Below, in pieces: positions 5,918 through 15,699 of a DNA stretch of 17,012 nucleotides. This stretch comes from Elusimicrobia bacterium HGW-Elusimicrobia-2 (GTDB taxonomy: Bacteria; CG03). The notes beneath the pieces are model-generated. The model was not told the origin of the DNA. It did not search any database and was given only the letters and a program-made list of their open reading frames with translations. The stretch lies in contig PHAM01000041.1 of assembly GCA_002841685.1 (NCBI GenBank), forward strand, positions 1 through 17,012. The letters are read 5' to 3'. The position numbers and the translations under genes were made by a program. Position 1 is the first letter of the stretch. Every line of letters begins with the position of its first letter.

Positions 5918-6709
5918 TTATCTCATAAGAATGCGGCGGCGGACTTGCTTTTGAAGATCAAGATCAAGCTCCGTCATGAGCAGGCGGTTTCCGCGCGCGG
6001 GGGCTTCCGCGATTATCTTCCCCCAGGGATCGGTCACAATAGAGTGACCGTAACTCAACGCGCCCGTCGATGGACTTCTGCCCCACTGATTCGGGCAAAT
6101 CATAAAAATCTGCCATTCTATGGATCTCGCCCTCACGAGCGTTTGCCAATGGGCCTTACCCGTGATAGCGGTAAAATCCGAAGGCATCACAACGGCATCC
6201 GCACCCTTATCCGACAGCGACTGAAAAAGGGATGAAAACCTCAGATCAAAACACAGGGCCTGTCCTATTCGGCGGCCTTTAAAGGGAAAGACGGAAATCG
6301 TTTTGCCCGGCTTATAAATACCGCACTCGTCGATCTTTCTATCAGCATGAGCCCTGAAAAGATGGATTTTTTTGTATTTAACGGCTTTTGTTCCGCCGCT
6401 GTTGAGCACAAAGGATGTGTTGTAGAACTTATTCTTCCCCGCCGCCGCTTCAGGCGCGGAACCCGCCACTATGCAAAGAGAATGTTTTTTCGCCAGAGAC
6501 TCCAGCGCAGGATGCGCTTTCTTCCTGACGAATTCAGCGGCGGCGGCAAGCCCAAGCGCTTTGCCCCTGTAAAAACAGTATTCCGGAAAAACCAAGAGGC
6601 CGGCCTTGAGTTTCGCCGAGGCCTCGACGAAGCCTTTAATGCTCTCAAAATTTTTGATTACATCCGAACCTGAATTCATCTGAACGGCGGCAACTTTTAT
6701 TTTTTTCAT
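5918..6709 (-). CDS. Carbon-nitrogen hydrolase (nitrilase superfamily, Nit2-like)
   Basis: A 263-residue cytoplasmic amidohydrolase. The Glu-Lys-Cys catalytic triad is visible: Glu43 in FPEY, Lys114 in KYKKIHLF, and Cys153 in ALCFDLRF. The CFDLRF form of the nucleophile loop is typical of the Nit1/Nit2/YafV branch (omega-amidase or deaminated-glutathione amidase), rather than true nitrilases. The end of the protein (YGHSIVTDPWGKIIAEA) is also standard. The exact substrate cannot be read from the sequence. It lies 160 bases beyond lpdA and 54 bases before leuS, on the same strand. The gap to lpdA contains an inverted GC-rich repeat, so co-transcription with the gcv genes is uncertain. The start has no strong ribosome-binding site. 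Confidence 0.88.
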   Translation of the reverse strand: MKKIKVAAVQMNSGSDVIKNFESIKGFVEASAKLKAGLLVFPEYCFYRGKALGLAAAAEFVRKKAHPALESLAKKHSLCIVAGSAPEAAAGKNKFYNTSFVLNSGGTKAVKYKKIHLFRAHADRKIDECGIYKPGKTISVFPFKGRRIGQALCFDLRFSSLFQSLSDKGADAVVMPSDFTAITGKAHWQTLVRARSIEWQIFMICPNQWGRSPSTGALSYGHSIVTDPWGKIIAEAPARGNRLLMTELDLDLQKQVRRRILMR

Positions 6710-6720
6710 ATCTTAACCGT

Positions 6721-6837
6721 GCCCGGCAGAGATATCCGTAGACGGCCGCTCAGGTATGCGCTTCGCTGCCAATTCGCTCGGAGCGCCGGGCAAAACTCCT
6801 CGCTCATATGGCCCGCTCCGGATACCATCTGCCGGGC
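6721..6837. repeat. Imperfect inverted GC-rich repeat between lpdA and the amidohydrolase gene
   Basis: GCCCGGCAGAGATATCCG at 6721-6738 is mirrored by CGGATACCATCTGCCGGGC at 6819-6837 (the same word with one extra base and one change). The right arm itself folds (GCCCG 6811-6815 with CGGGC 6833-6837), and a smaller CGCTC-G-GAGCG palindrome sits between the arms at 6775-6785. Together they fill most of the 160-base gap. A related copy lies at 9975-9997. This looks like a REP/BIME-like dispersed palindromic element. It could help end or shield the gcv transcript, but there is no T-run. Confidence 0.55.
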
Positions 6838-6869
6838 TGGCCTTATGTTGCTCTTATAAAATTCCAGAT

Positions 6870-8228
6870 TCATATTTTGGAGAGAGTGTCGGAAACTATT
6901 TCCGACAGCGTCGGGTGGCCGTACATCACCTCGGCAGCGTGCTTCACTGTCATAGCCCGTGAAACCGCAGGCGCGAGAAGATGTATGAGTTCGCAGGCAT
7001 CTGCGCCTGAAGCCGCGGCCCCGAGAATAACTCCGTCAGAGACGGATGAGATTATCTTGAGAAAACCCTCGGTTTCACCCGCGATGACCGCCTTGGCGTT
7101 GGCGGCAAAAAAGCTCTTGTGTGTTTTTGTTTCTATCCCCCGCGATGCGGCCTCTTTTTCCGTCATGCCTATCGCCCCTATCTGGGGGAATGAGAAAACA
7201 ACCCTAGGAACGGCGGTGTAATTTATTTTTTCCGCCCTGATCCCCGCTATGGCGCCGGCGGCCGAGACTCCTTCCCTGTAAGCCGTGTGAGCGAGCATGG
7301 GAGATTCTATAACATCCCCCGCGGCGTAAATATTGTGAACATTTGTCCTCATAGAATCATCAACAGCTATAGCCCCCGAGGGAAGGATCTCAATACCAGC
7401 CGCGGCCGCGTTCAGATCTTCCGTTCGTGAGCGCCTTCCCACCGCCGAAAGAACGGCGTCAAATTTATCTTCTGAAGAACGGCCATTCTGATCTATACGA
7501 GCCGACACACCGGCCTTATCAGCGGAAAGGGATTTCAACGCAGCGCCCTTGATCACCCCGATCCCCTGTTTCTTGAACTCTCTTTCAAGAGCGCGCGAAA
7601 TATCATCGTCTTCCACTGCCAAAAGCGAAGGCAGCGACTCCAGCACCGTGACATCTTTACCAAAAGCCCTGTAAAGCGAGGCGAATTCACATCCTATATA
7701 GCCTCCGCCGACGATAAGAAGATTATTGCCGGAAAAACCCTTTTCCAATATCTGAGCGCTGTCCAGAGCCAGGCCAAAACCCTCAAGGCTGAGTTTCCGG
7801 GGGACAGATCCGCTGGCGACAATAAAATATTCGGCCTCCAATTCCCGGGAATCTATTTTTATGACATTTCCCGATACGAAAGAGGCCGCTCCAAAAATAA
7901 AATCTATACCCTGCCTTTTGAGAGATGAATAAAGCGCCGTTCTCAAGAAATCCATTTTTTTTGAAGCCGAGACGCGCACAGCGCCCATATCGGCTTTGAT
8001 CTCTCCGCTCTCTATACCGAAGTCTGCTGAACGCCGCATATTAATGAAAAGATGAGCGGACTCTATCATGGCTTTCACAGGCACGCATCCCTCGTTGAGA
8101 CAGGTGCCTCCTATACGCTCGTCGGAAAATTCGGCGACACAGACCTTCTTTTTCAAAGCCGCCAGATGTTCGGCCGCCCTGTAGCCCGCCGGGCCGCCGC
8201 CTATGATTATCACATCGTATTTTTTCAT
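6870..8228 (-). CDS. lpdA: Dihydrolipoamide dehydrogenase (L-protein)
   Basis: A 452-residue FAD/NAD flavoprotein that reoxidises dihydrolipoyl groups, here most likely those on GcvH. Visible features are the FAD-binding GGGPAGYRAAE near the start, the redox-active disulfide CLNEGC (Cys43 and Cys48), the NAD-binding VGGGYIGCEFAS, the second FAD motif YAAGDV, and the C-terminal catalytic His-Pro-Thr-Leu-Ser-Glu of the dimer interface. The disulfide loop reads GCVPVK where most relatives have GCIPSK. Two ATGs stand in tandem at 8231 and 8228. The GGAGG is 3 bases from the first and 6 from the second, so the second is preferred. It is the last gene of the gcv locus, 98 bases after the lipoyl fusion gene, with a possible promoter of its own. 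Confidence 0.95.
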   Translation of the reverse strand: MKKYDVIIIGGGPAGYRAAEHLAALKKKVCVAEFSDERIGGTCLNEGCVPVKAMIESAHLFINMRRSADFGIESGEIKADMGAVRVSASKKMDFLRTALYSSLKRQGIDFIFGAASFVSGNVIKIDSRELEAEYFIVASGSVPRKLSLEGFGLALDSAQILEKGFSGNNLLIVGGGYIGCEFASLYRAFGKDVTVLESLPSLLAVEDDDISRALEREFKKQGIGVIKGAALKSLSADKAGVSARIDQNGRSSEDKFDAVLSAVGRRSRTEDLNAAAAGIEILPSGAIAVDDSMRTNVHNIYAAGDVIESPMLAHTAYREGVSAAGAIAGIRAEKINYTAVPRVVFSFPQIGAIGMTEKEAASRGIETKTHKSFFAANAKAVIAGETEGFLKIISSVSDGVILGAAASGADACELIHLLAPAVSRAMTVKHAAEVMYGHPTLSEIVSDTLSKI

Positions 8229-8272
8229 CATTATCCTCCGTTAATATCCACGGGATGCCAAACACATCTCTA

Positions 8273-8281
8273 TTTATAGCA
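8273..8281 (-). promoter_or_regulatory. Possible internal promoter of lpdA
   Basis: On the minus strand, TGC-TATAAA forms an extended -10 element (TATAAA is the complement of 8273-8278) about 45 bases ahead of the lpdA start. No good -35 box stands 16-18 bases upstream, which is tolerable for extended -10 promoters. The 95-98 base gap here is the longest inside the gcv locus. Separate expression of lpdA would make sense if it also serves other lipoyl complexes. Confidence 0.35.
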
Positions 8282-8326
8282 AAATTTTCAGGCTTCTTCT
8301 GCAATTATGCTTTGACTTACGCATTG

Positions 8327-9970
8327 TCAGGAATAATTTTCCGCCATATAGGAACTGCGCACATAAGGGGCGCTCTCCACATGTTCGAAGCCTTCCTTAT
8401 AAGCGGCAATCTTATAATATTCAAATTCTTCGGACGGGACATATCTCTTCACGGGATATGCTTTCTTTGAAGGCATAAGATACTGCCCTATGCTCAGATA
8501 AGCGGCTCCGCTCCGCCTTATGTCTTTTATAAGTCCGATAACCGATGTTTCCGTTTCGCCCAGTCCCAGCATAAAGCCGGATTTCGCCTTTATGCCCGAT
8601 GCCGCTATTCTTTTAAGGACATTCAGCGACCTGTCATAATCCGCGCCTTTCCTTATATGGTAGAGCTCCCTGACGGTTTCCATATTATGGCCTATTATAT
8701 CAGGGCTCGTTTGCGTCACTTTCAAAAGGCTCTTTTCATCTCCCGCGAAATCGGGAATGAGCAGATCTATCTTTAATGGCGGCGAAATTTTTCTTAATTC
8801 TCGTACCGTTTGCGCGAAAAATTCAGCGCCTCCGTCCGGCAAATCATCTCTCGTCGGACTTGTCACCACAACATGTTTGAGTTTCAGCCGAGCGGCGGCT
8901 CCGGCGACTCTCGCGGCCTCGTCCTCGTCCGAAGGATGGGGCACGGGCCTGCCCCGCCCAACGGCGCAGAAAAGACATCCCCTCGTGCAGGCATCGCCAA
9001 GTATCATAAAAGTCGCGCGGCCGCGTGAAAAGCACTCGCTTATATTCGGACAAAGTGATTCCACACAAATCGTGTGCAGTTTATGAGAGGAAAGAAGTTT
9101 TTTCATGGGCGTTAAACTTCTGAAATCAATTTTTTTATTCAGCCACGGGGGAAGCCTTTTAGGCGCGGCTTCTAAGTCCGCCGTTTTAAGCTCGACCACC
9201 GCGACGGTTTCATTAAAATTTACGTCGTAAACCGTTTCAAAACTTTTTTTAAGTATTTTTTTAGCCTCGTCAAATGACAGTTGTACCCCGAGCCCTGAAA
9301 GCGAAGCGCTGCCCGCAAGCGCGTTTGAAACATCGCCCCTTATATATCTGCCGGCTTCGCGGAAAGATAAATCAAGAGGTATGGAGCCGTGCTGAAATAT
9401 AATTCCCCTACGCCTCTTCTGGGCGTTACCGCCTATTTTTTTACCGCCTATTATAATATCGTATTTTTCCCGCCCGGCGAGGCAAAAGCCGGAACCGTCA
9501 ATTTTTTCTGATGAAAAACTTTCCCCCCAGTAGGAAGCATCCAATCCCAGCGCTTTATAAAAATGAATAAGAAAAGCCGTGGTCGCCTTGTATATCTCAC
9601 CCGCTGTCATTGTCTTAAAGAGCGCGTCGGAAAAAACCATACTGTATGTTATTTCGCCGCTGTGGAAAAGCGCCCCGCCGCCGGTCATCCTCTTCACCAC
9701 GTCAATGCCGTCCGCGCGGCATTTTTTCGTGTCGGCAATATCGTTAATGTTCTGTGAAAAACCCGCCGAAACCGCCTTCGGTTCCCATCCGTAAATTCTG
9801 AAAACGGATTCCGGGTTTCCGCTTTCAAAAGAATTAAAAAGCTCTTCGTCAAAAGCCATATTTTTTTGCGCTGATGAAAAACCGGAATCAATAAAACGCC
9901 ATTCACCAGGCGCCAGGCCGGCTCCGCCGGGACTTTCTAATATTTCGTGACTTGTTCGCGTTAAACCCAT
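8327..9970 (-). CDS. Fused octanoyltransferase (LipM type)-lipoyl synthase (LipA)
   Basis: One uninterrupted 547-residue frame with two enzymes. Residues ~22-260 form a biotin/lipoate transferase domain: VKRMTGGGALFH (92-103), a candidate nucleophile Cys163 in GFCLAGREKYDI, and GGKKIGGNAQKRR (175-187). The Cys and the NAQ form favour LipM-type octanoyltransferase over LplA ligase. Residues ~270-547 are lipoyl synthase: the auxiliary 4Fe-4S cysteines 302, 307 and 313, the radical-SAM motif C-TRG-C-LF-C (328/332/335), and the terminal RSSY at 538-541. Together they would move octanoate from acyl carrier protein to a target lysine and insert two sulfurs. It lies between gcvPB and lpdA, so GcvH is the obvious client. 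The ATG at 9968-9970 lacks a clear ribosome-binding site and follows a repeat unit. Confidence 0.9.
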   Translation of the reverse strand: MGLTRTSHEILESPGGAGLAPGEWRFIDSGFSSAQKNMAFDEELFNSFESGNPESVFRIYGWEPKAVSAGFSQNINDIADTKKCRADGIDVVKRMTGGGALFHSGEITYSMVFSDALFKTMTAGEIYKATTAFLIHFYKALGLDASYWGESFSSEKIDGSGFCLAGREKYDIIIGGKKIGGNAQKRRRGIIFQHGSIPLDLSFREAGRYIRGDVSNALAGSASLSGLGVQLSFDEAKKILKKSFETVYDVNFNETVAVVELKTADLEAAPKRLPPWLNKKIDFRSLTPMKKLLSSHKLHTICVESLCPNISECFSRGRATFMILGDACTRGCLFCAVGRGRPVPHPSDEDEAARVAGAAARLKLKHVVVTSPTRDDLPDGGAEFFAQTVRELRKISPPLKIDLLIPDFAGDEKSLLKVTQTSPDIIGHNMETVRELYHIRKGADYDRSLNVLKRIAASGIKAKSGFMLGLGETETSVIGLIKDIRRSGAAYLSIGQYLMPSKKAYPVKRYVPSEEFEYYKIAAYKEGFEHVESAPYVRSSYMAENYS

Positions 9971-9974
9971 ATTA

Positions 9975-9997
9975 CGGCAGACGGTATCCGGCCGGGC
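9975..9997 (-). repeat. Dispersed repeat unit in the gcvPB-lip fusion gap
   Basis: Read on the minus strand, this is GCCCGGCCGGATACCGTCTG followed by CCG. It differs from the plus-strand word at 6811-6834 at only a few positions including one length change. It fills nearly the whole 27-base gap between the gcvPB stop and the fusion-gene start, and can fold (CGGC...GCCG around CGG-TAT-CCG). It sits where a ribosome-binding site would be expected, so it may influence translation of the fusion gene. Confidence 0.5.
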
Positions 9998-11446
9998 TCA
10001 TTTTTCGGGATATTTTATATTAAGTTTACGCGCGGCAGAGGTTTCATCCAGCCGGCCGATACACGAGGAGAGCGGATGCCTTTTGAATAACTCGGGGTCT
10101 TCGGCAGCCTCCTGCGCGGCGTCTTTCATGGCTTCTATAAATTCATCAATGGTATAGAGACTTTCCGTTTCGGTGGGTTCTATCATTAAGGCCTCTTTCA
10201 CTATCAGAGGAAAATAAATCGTCGGGGGATGAAAGCCTCGGTCTATAAGAAATTTCGCTATATCCAGCGCGTGCACGCCTTGTTCCATCTGTTTGGACGC
10301 GGAAAAAACGCACTCGTGCATACAGCGCCTCTTATACGGCAGCTCATAAAATTTTTCAAGCGCCGCCTTTATGTAATTTGCGTTAAGCACTGCTTTTTCG
10401 CTGGCGTCGGCGAGGCCGTCGCCGCCCATAAGTAATATATACGCGTACGCTTTTACCAGCACACCGAAATTACCGAAAAAAGGAGCGAGGCGTCCTATGC
10501 TGCGCGGCCTTTTTATAATACTAAAACCTCCGTCCGCGCCTTTTATTATCGCAGGGCCTGGCAGAAAATCCGCGAGATTTTTCTTAACGCACACGGGCCC
10601 CGCTCCGGGGCCGCCGCCGCCGTGGGGCGTAGCGAAAGTCTTGTGCATGTTGAGATGCATAATATCAAAACCCGCGTCGCCGGGGCGCATTTTCCCCATA
10701 ATGGCGTTCATGTTGGCGCCGTCACAATAAGCCAGCGCCCCCGCTTTATGGGCAAGCTCGCAGACCTCTCTTATATTTCTGTTAAAAATTCCCAGCGTAT
10801 TGGGACAGGTCATCATAACCGCGGCCACTGACCCGTTCAGATTTTTTTTGTACTCATCCATATCCATTTCGCCGTTTTTATCTGACGCAATTGTGATAAC
10901 GTCAAAACCGGACATGGCGGATGATGCGGGATTCGTTCCATGGGATGTGTCGGGCACAATAACAATTTTTCTTTCTTCTCCGCGTGACGCGTGAAAAGCG
11001 GCGGCGATTTTCATACCCGCGAACTCTCCGTGAGCTCCTGCCATCGGCTGCAAAGACACCTCGTCCATTCCTGTAACGGCCGTAAGCGCTTTCTCCAGAT
11101 TATAAAGAAGTTCAAGCGCGCCAGAAATAGAGTGCTTTCCCGACGGAGAATAACATAAAAAGGGATGAAGGTTCCTGAAACCGCCCAGGGCGGCGGCCTC
11201 CTCCAGCGCTTTTGGATTATATTTCATCGTGCAGGATCCCAGCGGATAAAAATTTGAGTCAACAGAGTAATTTTCTTTCGAAAGTTTCGAAAAATGCCTG
11301 ACAGTGTCGAGTTCGGAGACCTCCGGCAATCCGGCAGGGAATTTCCGCAGAAGATTATCAGGAAGTGCCGGGTAATGCTTCACATCGCGCTCGGGAATTT
11401 TCACGCCTTTTCTTCCCTCAACCGATTTTTCGTATATAAGTTTCAT
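9998..11446 (-). CDS. gcvPB: Glycine dehydrogenase (decarboxylating) subunit 2
   Basis: A 482-residue C-terminal half of the split P-protein. With GcvPA it forms the PLP-dependent decarboxylase that takes CO2 off glycine and passes the aminomethyl group to lipoyl-GcvH. The PLP lysine is Lys269 in NMHKTFATPHGGGGPG, which also contains the Gly-rich loop. Other family marks are FYPLGSCTMKYNP (67-79), PMAGAHGE and TSHGTNPASS. Length and content are normal. The start overlaps the gcvPA stop by 4 bases (ATGA), with GGAG just upstream, so the two subunits are translationally coupled, as expected for an obligate heteromer. Confidence 0.96.
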   Translation of the reverse strand: MKLIYEKSVEGRKGVKIPERDVKHYPALPDNLLRKFPAGLPEVSELDTVRHFSKLSKENYSVDSNFYPLGSCTMKYNPKALEEAAALGGFRNLHPFLCYSPSGKHSISGALELLYNLEKALTAVTGMDEVSLQPMAGAHGEFAGMKIAAAFHASRGEERKIVIVPDTSHGTNPASSAMSGFDVITIASDKNGEMDMDEYKKNLNGSVAAVMMTCPNTLGIFNRNIREVCELAHKAGALAYCDGANMNAIMGKMRPGDAGFDIMHLNMHKTFATPHGGGGPGAGPVCVKKNLADFLPGPAIIKGADGGFSIIKRPRSIGRLAPFFGNFGVLVKAYAYILLMGGDGLADASEKAVLNANYIKAALEKFYELPYKRRCMHECVFSASKQMEQGVHALDIAKFLIDRGFHPPTIYFPLIVKEALMIEPTETESLYTIDEFIEAMKDAAQEAAEDPELFKRHPLSSCIGRLDETSAARKLNIKYPEK

Positions 11447-12786
11447 TGCTTCTCCGATAAAAATTTCGCGAGCGTCCGCGCGAAAAAATCAATATCCTCT
11501 TTTTTGTTTTTTTCCGTGAAACTGATTAAAACACTTTTTTCAAAACCCTCATAAAAAACGCTCAAATCTATACCGGCGTCAATGCCTGATTCCGCCATAG
11601 CGCCTAACAGCATCTCAGCCGGAAAATCCGTTTCAAAAACAAACTCGTTGAAAGTCGCCGCGGTATTTTTTATTTTAACCGAAGGAATCTTCCCTATAAG
11701 CTCTTTGGCATATTCGCTTTTGTCCCTTGAAAGCGCCGCGATTTCCCTGAAACCTGCTTTCCCGACGAGAGAAAGATAAATAAGGGCTCTGAGGGCGCAT
11801 AAATTCTGATTGCTGCATATATTGGAAGATGCCCTTTCTCTTCTTATGTGCTGTTCTCTCGCCTGAAGGGTGAGGACAAAACCCCGCCGTCCCGCGGAAT
11901 CAAAAGCGGCGCCGGTTATTCTGCCGGGCAAATTTCTCAAGTACAAAGTGGAAGCCGCGAGGAAACCGAGGTAAGGCCCCCCGAAAGAAAGCGGGATTCC
12001 TAAACTCTGGCCGGAGCCTGAGGCAATATCAAACCCCATTTCAGCGGCCGTTTTCAATATCGCAAGAGCAACCGGATAAAACGACCCCACCGCCGCCGCG
12101 CCCGCGGAATGCGCCGATGCCGTGACATCGCTGTAATCGTCAACGGTGCCGAAAAAATTCGGGTTCTGAATAACAGCGGCCGCTGTGCCGCCATCAAGCG
12201 CTTCTTTGAATTTCTTCCTCGCCATACAGCAACCCTCGGAAGCAATCTCAATCAGTGAAAACTCCGCGCCGGAAAAATATGTTTTGATGATATCTTTGTA
12301 AAGAGGATTCACCCCGCCGTCTATAACAATTTTTTTACGGCCTGTTTTCCGCACCGCCATCATTATAGCCTCAGCCAGAGCCGTTCCTCCGTCGTAAACC
12401 GAGGCATTTGCCCCGTCAAGTCCCGTCAGGCGGCAGACAGCCGTCTGATATTCATAAATTATTTGAAGCGTGCCCTGAGAGCACTCGCTCTGATAAGGGG
12501 TGTAGGCTGTGAGAAATTCCGGCAGTTGTGAAAGAGCGTTAACAGCGGAAGGAATAAAATGGTCATAAAAACCTCCCCCCATAAAACTGATTCCGGCCGG
12601 GCGGCAATTAGAAGAAAGTTTTTCAAGTGCGCCCATCACCTCAAACTCGCTTTTTCCTTTTTCAAGTTTAAGCTCCCCCGAACGAAGCGCCGGAGCGATA
12701 TCCGAAAAGAGTTCATCAACGGAATCCGCGCCGATTACGCGCAGCATTTTCTCTATTTCTTTATCTGTGTGCGGGCAGTATGACAT
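11443..12786 (-). CDS. gcvPA: Glycine dehydrogenase (decarboxylating) subunit 1
   Basis: A 447-residue N-terminal half of the split P-protein, which pairs with GcvPB. The opening (YCPHTDKEIEKMLRVIGADS...ELF) and the segment PYQSECSQGTLQIIYEYQT are typical of the family. GGPYLGFLA and the QAREQHIRRERASSNICSNQ stretch, which closes the fold near the active site, are also present. The length matches split-type GcvPA. It starts 6 bases after the gcvH stop, with only a weak GGAA upstream, and ends overlapping gcvPB. A two-gene P-protein is usual outside the Proteobacteria/eukaryote type, in which P is one chain. Confidence 0.95.
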   Translation of the reverse strand: MSYCPHTDKEIEKMLRVIGADSVDELFSDIAPALRSGELKLEKGKSEFEVMGALEKLSSNCRPAGISFMGGGFYDHFIPSAVNALSQLPEFLTAYTPYQSECSQGTLQIIYEYQTAVCRLTGLDGANASVYDGGTALAEAIMMAVRKTGRKKIVIDGGVNPLYKDIIKTYFSGAEFSLIEIASEGCCMARKKFKEALDGGTAAAVIQNPNFFGTVDDYSDVTASAHSAGAAAVGSFYPVALAILKTAAEMGFDIASGSGQSLGIPLSFGGPYLGFLAASTLYLRNLPGRITGAAFDSAGRRGFVLTLQAREQHIRRERASSNICSNQNLCALRALIYLSLVGKAGFREIAALSRDKSEYAKELIGKIPSVKIKNTAATFNEFVFETDFPAEMLLGAMAESGIDAGIDLSVFYEGFEKSVLISFTEKNKKEDIDFFARTLAKFLSEKQ

Positions 12787-12792
12787 AAATTT

Positions 12793-13167
12793 TTATTCCA
12801 GGCTTTTCAGGAACTCTTTATATTTGTCAGGCGTCATAAGATCGTTCACATCATCGGGACTGCTTATTTCAAGTTTGGCTATCCAGCCCTCGTCCTCGGG
12901 CGATTCGTTCAGTTTTTCCGGAGCCGACTCAAGTACGGAATTGGCTTCCGTCACTTTGCCCGTCACGGGAGCGTATATGTCACTGGCCGCCTTAACGGAT
13001 TCCACAGTGCAGACAACCCCTGATTTTGTTATTTCCTTACCCACTTCCGGCAGTTCAACGTAGGTTATATCACCCAACTGCTTGACCGCGTAGGCGGATA
13101 TTCCCATGATACCCCGGCGGCCCTCAACTTTCACCCATTCATGATCTTTTGTGTAATAAATATCCAT
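12793..13167 (-). CDS. gcvH: Glycine cleavage system H protein
   Basis: A 124-residue lipoyl carrier that shuttles the aminomethyl intermediate between P, T and L proteins. The start YYTKDHEWV is the family signature. The lipoyl attachment site is Lys59 in TVESVKAASDIYAPVTGKV. The rest (ELPEVGKEI, NESPEDEGWIAKLE) is standard, as is the length. A run of six G residues serves as ribosome-binding site close to the ATG at 13165-13167. It lies 19 bases after gcvT and 6 before gcvPA. It is the likely substrate of the octanoyltransferase-lipoyl synthase fusion encoded downstream. Confidence 0.97.
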   Translation of the reverse strand: MDIYYTKDHEWVKVEGRRGIMGISAYAVKQLGDITYVELPEVGKEITKSGVVCTVESVKAASDIYAPVTGKVTEANSVLESAPEKLNESPEDEGWIAKLEISSPDDVNDLMTPDKYKEFLKSLE

Positions 13168-13186
13168 ATTCCCCCCTAAAACATTT

Positions 13187-14281
13187 TCAATTCCGAAGCG
13201 ATGTCTTTTTCAAAAATGGAATTTCCGTTATTTTGCCTTTTAACTCCACATTTTTACCGTCTGAAATTGTTATAACAGCGCCTTTTTTATCAAAACCCGG
13301 CGTGACAAAACCTAAGCCTATGCCGCAGGAAAAAACCGGAGAAAAAACGCCGCTGGTCACTTCCCCTATATCTTTCCCGCCGCTCAAAATTCTGTAATGA
13401 CTCCGCGGGCTTCGCCGCCCTTCGGTTTGAAAAGCTATTTTGGTTTTCGTCGCGCCCTTCCCCTTTCGTACACGAAGCGCGCTTTTTCCGAAAAAATCCT
13501 TATCGTAATTTACAAACATATCCAGCCCCGCCTCGTCAGGCGAAGTTTGTGCGTCAATGTCGTGTCCGTAAAGGCTGTAGCCCATCTCAAGCCGCAGAAT
13601 ATCCCTCGCGCCCAATCCCGCGGGCTTCACCCTTACGTCGCCCAGGAGCTTGTTCCAAAGCTCAACGGCATGTTCGGAATTTATAAAAATTTCATAACCT
13701 AACTCGCCGGTATATCCTGTACGGCTGATTAAAGCCTTTTCGCCCAAAATATCAAAATAGCCGAAATTAAAATATTTCAAGCCGATATCAAGGCCGAGCG
13801 CTTCTTTCAAAACATCTCTTGAGAGAGGCCCCTGCAGATCTATCTTTGCCGTCTCAGCTGAGATGTCCGAGAGATCGCCCTTTCGCAGACGCTTTTTCAA
13901 AATCTCATAGTCGTTTTCCAATGTCGCCGCATTGACGACAATCATAAATTCATTTTCGGCTTTTCTGAAAATTATCAGGTCATCCTCTATACCGCCCGAA
14001 TCATTTAATATAAATCCGTAGCGGCTTTTACCTTCGGCGAGGCCCGAAATATTCTGCGTAACGGCGTTGTCAAGTTCGGCGGCGTCACCCGTAAACAAAA
14101 ACTCCCCCATGTGGCATATATCAAACACCGCAGCAGACTTTCGGCATGCGCTGTGCTCGGCAATAATGCCCTCGTAGGAAATCGGCATATACCATCCCCC
14201 GAAAGGCGCGAATCTCACGCCAAGCTTTTTGTGCTCGCCGTAAAGAGGCGTTAATTTCATAGCTGTTCCCATGGCTTTCAT
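13187..14281 (-). CDS. gcvT: Glycine cleavage system T protein (aminomethyltransferase)
   Basis: A 364-residue folate enzyme that releases ammonia from the aminomethyl-lipoyl group on GcvH and passes the one-carbon unit to tetrahydrofolate. Visible marks are FAPFGGWYMPISYEG near the N-terminus, HMGEF, QNISGLAEGKSRYGFILN, RTGYTGELGYEIF, and LRLEMGYSLYGHDID with the SPDEAGL that follows. This is the first gene of the locus. Two starts are possible: ATG at 14281, or ATG at 14260, which gives the family-like MKLTPLYGEHK and has a GGGA six bases upstream. The second may be the true start. The region ahead contains a palindrome. Confidence 0.96.
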   Translation of the reverse strand: MKAMGTAMKLTPLYGEHKKLGVRFAPFGGWYMPISYEGIIAEHSACRKSAAVFDICHMGEFLFTGDAAELDNAVTQNISGLAEGKSRYGFILNDSGGIEDDLIIFRKAENEFMIVVNAATLENDYEILKKRLRKGDLSDISAETAKIDLQGPLSRDVLKEALGLDIGLKYFNFGYFDILGEKALISRTGYTGELGYEIFINSEHAVELWNKLLGDVRVKPAGLGARDILRLEMGYSLYGHDIDAQTSPDEAGLDMFVNYDKDFFGKSALRVRKGKGATKTKIAFQTEGRRSPRSHYRILSGGKDIGEVTSGVFSPVFSCGIGLGFVTPGFDKKGAVITISDGKNVELKGKITEIPFLKKTSLRN

Positions 14282-14364: not shown

Positions 14365-15699
14365 TTAATACCTATGAAATATCAATTCATTGCTGATAGA
14401 TTTATTTATTTCACCTGTTTTTACATCAATGATTCTAAAACTTGCATACACAAAAGTTCCTGTGTTTTGTTGATAGTCCTGGAACGCACTTTTATACTCA
14501 CTGACCGCTATCAAAGATGGCGCTATGGGCGAAATGAGCTGCCCAGGCTTTCTTGGCTCTAATGCCCCATACGCCTGTAAATACTGCCCCGGAGAAGGTT
14601 TTACACCAGGTTGATATGTTGAATATGCCGAACCTACAATGATGTAGTCTGCATTCAAAATATTTCCTACTTCAATACATTTATTTTCCGTAAGCCCGCT
14701 TAAGCTAATCTTCCATTCATTTGTAATCTTACTTAACTCGTTCCTCTCAACAACTTTATAACCCATTCCCATATAATCAGATATTATTTTTTCAGTTACC
14801 CCCCAATTATCATTTTGAAATGGAAAGACGGCGACACATGTTTTCGCATCGTATACTTTTTCTTGATATTCTGTCTTTTTCCAATCCGCATTTTCAGAAG
14901 TGGTATCCTCCTCCACGACCATATCTGTTTTTGAAATGTGTTCGTAAATATATATTAAAGGATTTTCTCCATATTTACGAGCTTCAATATCCTTGAAATA
15001 TCTCTTTGATTCTTCCGGGTTATCTTTTAAAAAAGCAAACACTTTGTCTATTCCTTTGTCTCCATATTTCTCTTTAAACTCAGTTATTTCACGGTTCATC
15101 TGAATCTCCTGTGTACTTAAAGCAGCTTTTATTTTTTCCCGTTTTAATAGAAACTCTTTTTTTTTACTATTCCGCAAAATCGTTAATATTACTTCAGTGC
15201 CTATTTTCCCTTCCATTTTCTTGGCAAATTCTTCGGAAGTCAAACCTTTTGCACTTATCCCATCAATCTTGGTTATTTTATCCATTTCTATAATTCCCGA
15301 TTTGCTTGCCGGTGTTTCTGGAAAAACGTTTATTACTCTAAAAAAACCATCTTGAAAAGCAAGGTATTGGATTCCAATACCAACAAACTCATGGAATTTC
15401 TCTTCCGGGTTATTCCCGATGACAATGTCTTTTGAGCTATTTTGCCTGAGTGTTTTCAATTCTTCATTTACAGAAATGAGGTACATAGAATCAAGACCTT
15501 GCTCTTGATACTTTTCAATTACTCTCTCTAAAAAATTTATGCTTGCATCTGTTCCAGACGGTTTTATAACTCTTTGATAATACTGAATATCGCTTTCAAG
15601 CGATTTTTGCAAATTTTTCTGACTTGTATTTGCAAAACTAAATTGGGAAATAAATATTCCACATAAAATACTTAAAACTATTTTATTTCTATTTTTCAC
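14365..15699 (-). CDS. Exported PDZ-domain protein with CsgG/FlgO-like C-terminal domain
   Basis: A 444-residue protein of unrecognised specific function. An N-terminal signal peptide (charged MKNRNK, hydrophobic core, likely cleavage after SFA at about residue 23) suggests export to the periplasm or envelope; the Cys13 is not in a lipobox. Residues ~105-190 form a PDZ domain (IGIQYLAF, then INVFPETPASKSGIIEMDKI). A charged helical linker follows. Residues ~287-440 resemble the CsgG/FlgO fold (CVAVFPF, GYKVVERNELSKI, SLSGLTENKCIEVGNILNAD, IIVGSAY), a module that often assembles at the outer membrane. The start is a GTG (15697-15699) behind a GGGGG ribosome-binding site. Codon use is AT-rich, unlike the gcv genes. 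It follows the membrane-protein gene after 41 bases and is probably its operon partner. Confidence 0.7.
   Translation of the reverse strand: MKNRNKIVLSILCGIFISQFSFANTSQKNLQKSLESDIQYYQRVIKPSGTDASINFLERVIEKYQEQGLDSMYLISVNEELKTLRQNSSKDIVIGNNPEEKFHEFVGIGIQYLAFQDGFFRVINVFPETPASKSGIIEMDKITKIDGISAKGLTSEEFAKKMEGKIGTEVILTILRNSKKKEFLLKREKIKAALSTQEIQMNREITEFKEKYGDKGIDKVFAFLKDNPEESKRYFKDIEARKYGENPLIYIYEHISKTDMVVEEDTTSENADWKKTEYQEKVYDAKTCVAVFPFQNDNWGVTEKIISDYMGMGYKVVERNELSKITNEWKISLSGLTENKCIEVGNILNADYIIVGSAYSTYQPGVKPSPGQYLQAYGALEPRKPGQLISPIAPSLIAVSEYKSAFQDYQQNTGTFVYASFRIIDVKTGEINKSISNELIFHRY

Follow-up and report, generated by a model that had tools for sequence, protein, structure and literature searches.

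The window analyzed here, a stretch of 17,012 nucleotides, contains on its minus strand a gene of 547 codons (positions 8327 to 9970) in which a LipM-type octanoyltransferase, a linker and a complete lipoyl synthase (LipA) follow each other in a single frame. We consider it quite probable, judging from sequence, that this protein is a bifunctional enzyme, which makes lipoyl-GcvH de novo and is dedicated to GcvH. The open reading frame begins with ATG and contains no internal stop. A Pfam scan located LplA-B_cat (PF21948) at residues 34-244 (E = 6.9e-32) and Radical_SAM (PF04055) at residues 322-483 (E = 1.8e-18); the NCBIfam model for lipoyl synthase, NF004019, covers residues 274-545 (338.5 bits; cut-off 203). 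These results confirm the preliminary description, which did not state the strand but had recognized a LipM-type domain and a complete LipA in one frame without stop or shift. The domain search that it had named as a check found the transferase within the proposed residues 22-260, and the residues it had listed (Cys163, Lys177/178, both cysteine triplets and RSSY) are all present in the chain.

The C-terminal domain (residues 272-547; 8330-9157, minus strand) contains three cysteines for the auxiliary cluster (C302/C307/C313, CX4CX5C), three for the radical-SAM cluster (C328/C332/C335, CX3CX2C) and, near its C-terminus, RSSY at residues 538-541. With these six cysteines, the RSSY motif and a score above the NF004019 cut-off it qualifies as a predicted lipoyl synthase. 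Its closest solved relatives are lipoyl synthases (5exi, E = 5e-64), and it scores 299.8 bits with TIGR00510, just below the cut-off of 310.25.

Linker and translation of the fused frame

The same fused frame occurs in three of the four genomes of the host genus, which belong to a sample of 16 genomes from the uncultured host phylum; the two additional species have proteins with 88% and 78% identity, and the gene of one of them is also present in record VMTI01000290.1 (L016). In the fourth genome (G003), gcvH and the start of gcvPB are at the very end of a contig. This contig ends before the expected position of the fused gene, and the absence of the gene there is therefore uninformative. The fusion has so far been seen in this one genus, in three metagenome-assembled species. 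Pairwise dN/dS values across these species are 0.16-0.24 for the LipM half and 0.15-0.19 for the LipA half, which shows purifying selection on each half in every one of them.

The linker between the two domains (residues 253-272; 9155-9214, minus strand) has pairwise dN/dS values of 0.3-0.9 in the three species, i.e. close to neutral. Its length also differs among them, and every difference preserves the frame. In the full-length model two folded domains flank a disordered stretch at residues 255-270. The pTM of this model is 0.56 with an undefined domain interface, which is weak evidence either way given the shallow alignment of the N-terminal half (n = 5). The preliminary description had suggested that octanoyl-GcvH is handed directly to the radical-SAM domain. 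Such a processive hand-off between the two domains is hypothetical; a fixed channel is not indicated because the linker is predicted to be disordered and is poorly conserved and the pTM is low.

The properties of the linker can also be read in a different way. The fused frame may be translated and LipA may in addition, or even mainly, be produced by internal initiation; the fusion would then be near-neutral and without functional gain. A linker that is neither conserved nor ordered in the model is consistent with this scenario, as is the finding that every other relative checked encodes LipM and LipA by two genes. In one congener (G005) a TTG codon, 14 codons ahead of the LNKK motif, has GGAGGTGAAG as a possible Shine-Dalgarno sequence upstream, and the three fused proteins have Met289 in common. 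In the species of the window, however, the LipA boundary lacks a start codon accompanied by a Shine-Dalgarno sequence, and a start at Met289 would lose the conserved PxWLNKK segment. Furthermore, the consistent preservation of the frame in linkers of different length argues against internal initiation, which overall seems fairly unlikely. We retain the bifunctional single chain as the preferred reading.

Identity of the N-terminal domain

The N-terminal domain (residues ~22-252; 9215-9907, minus strand) contains the GGKK motif at residues 175-178, a lysine loop that Cys163 shortly precedes, as expected of the active-site cysteine of a LipM. In an alignment of 18 LipM-type relatives Cys163, Lys178 and His103, among others, are invariant. 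The solved ligases (LplA) that were aligned with this domain have no cysteine at the position of Cys163, and the Pfam scan of the 547-residue protein detected no ligase C-terminal domain, an accessory part that ligases of the LplA kind have either in the chain or as a separate LplB. No LplA-B_cat protein other than the fused one was found in the source genome, where a search with the whole fused protein returned just one match. For these reasons we read the domain as a LipM-type octanoyltransferase and not as a ligase. This assignment is well supported by the comparisons, even though Cronan has called the assignment of function by sequence within this transferase family perilous (PMC7253636).

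An AlphaFold model of the domain has a pLDDT of 88. The best fold match is the LplA of T. acidophilum (2art, Z 25.5, rmsd 2.3 over 215 residues), followed by LipB (Z 22.3) and the LipL-like protein 2p5i (Z 17.9); all of them share one common fold with the model. T. acidophilum LplA is also the closest solved relative by sequence, and the best NCBIfam models for the N-terminal half are ligases, namely LplA_large (86 bits) and LplAB (68 bits), albeit both far under their cut-offs. These similarities could mean that the domain is a lipoate/octanoate:protein ligase, which serves in scavenging, and would make the whole chain a ligase-LipA fusion comparable to the family NF053790 (LplA_LipA_fuse). 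This seems quite improbable. The invariant cysteine and the lack of a ligase C-terminal domain within the chain argue against it, and the only such protein found in the genome has its counterparts next to lipA in the relatives checked. Moreover, the whole protein scores 368 bits with NF053790 against a cut-off of 800, and the N-terminal half contributes a weak match of 27 bits; it is therefore not a member of that family. An identity as LipL amidotransferase was also rejected, with neither an E2 target in the phylum nor a second transferase in the genome being found; LipL models scored about 20 bits in two orthologues.

Genomic context and origin of the junction

The fused gene is flanked on both sides by a glycine cleavage operon with the order gcvT-gcvH-gcvPA-gcvPB-[lipM-lipA]-lpd, all on the minus strand. 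The genes gcvT (13187-14281) and lpd, encoding dihydrolipoyl dehydrogenase or L protein (6870-8231), were identified by Pfam and NCBIfam, gcvPA (11443-12786) by NCBIfam and gcvPB (9998-11446), located 27 bp upstream of the fused gene, by the ORF list and NCBIfam. The gcvH gene (12793-13167), which was recognized by the same two sources and a genome search, encodes the probable substrate with the lipoyl-lysine motif ESVKA. A single GcvH was found in the source genome, and a search of all 16 phylum genomes detected no E2 of a 2-oxoacid dehydrogenase in any of them; lipoate is hence probably required by GcvH alone.

The region contains several other features. A carbon-nitrogen hydrolase gene after lpd (5918-6709), similar to deaminated glutathione amidase but below the NCBIfam cut-off, has the same position in both congeners. 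The gene upstream of gcvT (14365-15699) encodes a PDZ domain and, toward the C-terminus of the same protein, a CsgG-like part (Pfam). In G005 gcvPA and gcvPB are deleted, with about 36 bp of the gcvPA start joined to about 50 bp of the gcvPB end (L072:5143-5241); this genome retains gcvT, gcvH, lipM-lipA and lpd, and a search of it found no match to GcvPB elsewhere. G004 has an extra ORF of 281 codons between the fused gene and lpd (L071:6474-7319), which by eye resembles proteins of the phage antirepressor type, and a transposase-like ORF at L071:16009-17589.

A comparison of positions 5918-14281 of the window with L071 (G004) and L072 (G005) revealed a mosaic operon. From gcvT to about residue 400 of LipA the DNA identity is 91-97% to G004 and ~78-80% to G005; beyond that residue, through lpd and the nitrilase gene, the identity is 93-95% to G005 and 72-82% to G004. 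The break within the lipA half may reflect recombination between congeners or a chimeric contig. A false junction of two neighboring genes, created in assembly or binning, would fit with a chimeric MAG contig broken inside the LipA half; the preliminary description had named an assembly error of this kind as a refutation. This reading has a negligible probability and was rejected: the junction itself passed a stop-to-stop check and is common to three diverged genomes, and since a stop or frame change parts the genes of relatives, the same accidental base error would be needed in three separate cases. The survey of the architecture, which had also been called for, located the fused frame in two further species.

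In the rest of the phylum, wherever both halves were found, lipM and lipA are neighboring but separate frames, and the same holds for the inspected MAGs of Omnitrophota, Spirochaetes and other groups. These pairs have the same order as the fusion and, in the cases inspected (e.g. L053), gcv genes as neighbors, but they consist of two open frames. Sometimes the two are parted by just one in-frame stop: TGA in L004, TAG in L053 and, according to search output, TAA in G716. The phylum-wide surveys used the best matches listed and may miss rare fusions; none of the matches listed for the phylum of the Omnitrophota MAG G022 (285 genomes) or for that of G017 (50 genomes) was both full-length and uninterrupted. 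Fourteen MAGs of Omnitrophota and Spirochaetes (G276, G249, G084, G202, G294, G108, G226, G102, G576, G370, G625, G647, G464 and G480) had been flagged as fusion candidates by the length of their open frame, a measure that may include stops or stop-free sequence unlike a transferase; on checking, none of them was a LipM-LipA fusion. An alignment in which relatives of the N-terminal half alone were combined with relatives of the C-terminal half alone was left out because it misaligned the N-terminal half. The fact that lipM and lipA are adjacent in relatives, sometimes one stop apart, makes the route to the fusion plain: it would have arisen by a lost stop or a frame change between them. Since relatives already have the genes as neighbors, the change itself is small.

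Proposed function and comparison with known systems

In the proposed mechanism the LipM domain would load the octanoyl group from octanoyl-ACP on Cys163 and pass it to the lysine of GcvH; the LipA domain would insert two sulfurs by radical-SAM chemistry. A flexible linker would tether the two domains, and because of this flexibility the fusion would be of use mainly by having both activities expressed in a 1:1 ratio and kept near each other on one small client protein. De novo lipoate synthesis thus has its two steps joined in an organism in which only GcvH seems to need lipoate. This agrees with a published proposal in which LipM, working on GcvH immediately ahead of LipA in organisms without LipL, represents the ancestral route (PMC3917532). 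A further-reaching version, which we regard as rather doubtful, is that one chain assembles lipoate for GcvH alone, does not release GcvH between octanoyl transfer and sulfur insertion, and is a living example of that ancestral route in organisms with GcvH as their sole lipoyl protein. The compact fused protein could be used to test the processivity of octanoyltransferase and lipoyl synthase, and could offer a simple way of producing lipoyl-GcvH.

The joining is real and uncommon; both enzymes are known, their order is the usual one, and comparable fusions occur elsewhere. In B. subtilis LipM makes octanoyl-GcvH, which LipA then converts by sulfur insertion (PMC7253636). These are the same two chemical steps on GcvH, but there LipM and LipA are separate proteins and LipL relays lipoate to E2, a protein that was not found in the 16 genomes of the host phylum. 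The statement in the preliminary description that no well-studied enzyme of this layout is known to its author still stands. We found no description of an octanoyltransferase-LipA fusion, of either LipM or LipB type, in the open-access literature searched. Related fusions exist, however, and the idea of such a fusion is not wholly new. The ligase-LipA family NF053790 (bifunctional lipoate--protein ligase/lipoyl synthase) is already in NCBIfam and resembles the fusion in that a domain of the LplA fold, which forms acyl-lysine, precedes LipA in one chain. Its N-terminal part, however, covers ~330 positions and represents a complete ligase, while the present domain is a cysteine-containing LipM of ~250 residues; none of the 392 genomes of the phylum of G021 has a protein above the NF053790 cut-off.

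Another counterpart was found in G309, from a phylum that includes Spirochaetes MAGs, where a gene on the minus strand (L089:644-2155) encodes a LipB-LipA fusion of 504 amino acids. It is the only one among the matches listed for the same 392 genomes; a second candidate, G344, was rejected since a stop lies between its genes. Like LipM-LipA, the G309 protein combines an octanoyltransferase with LipA in one frame, but its transferase half is LipB (TIGR00214, 157.7 bits), a member of a different family and hence an independent fusion. The use of different transferases in the two proteins indicates that fusions of an octanoyltransferase with LipA arose at least twice.
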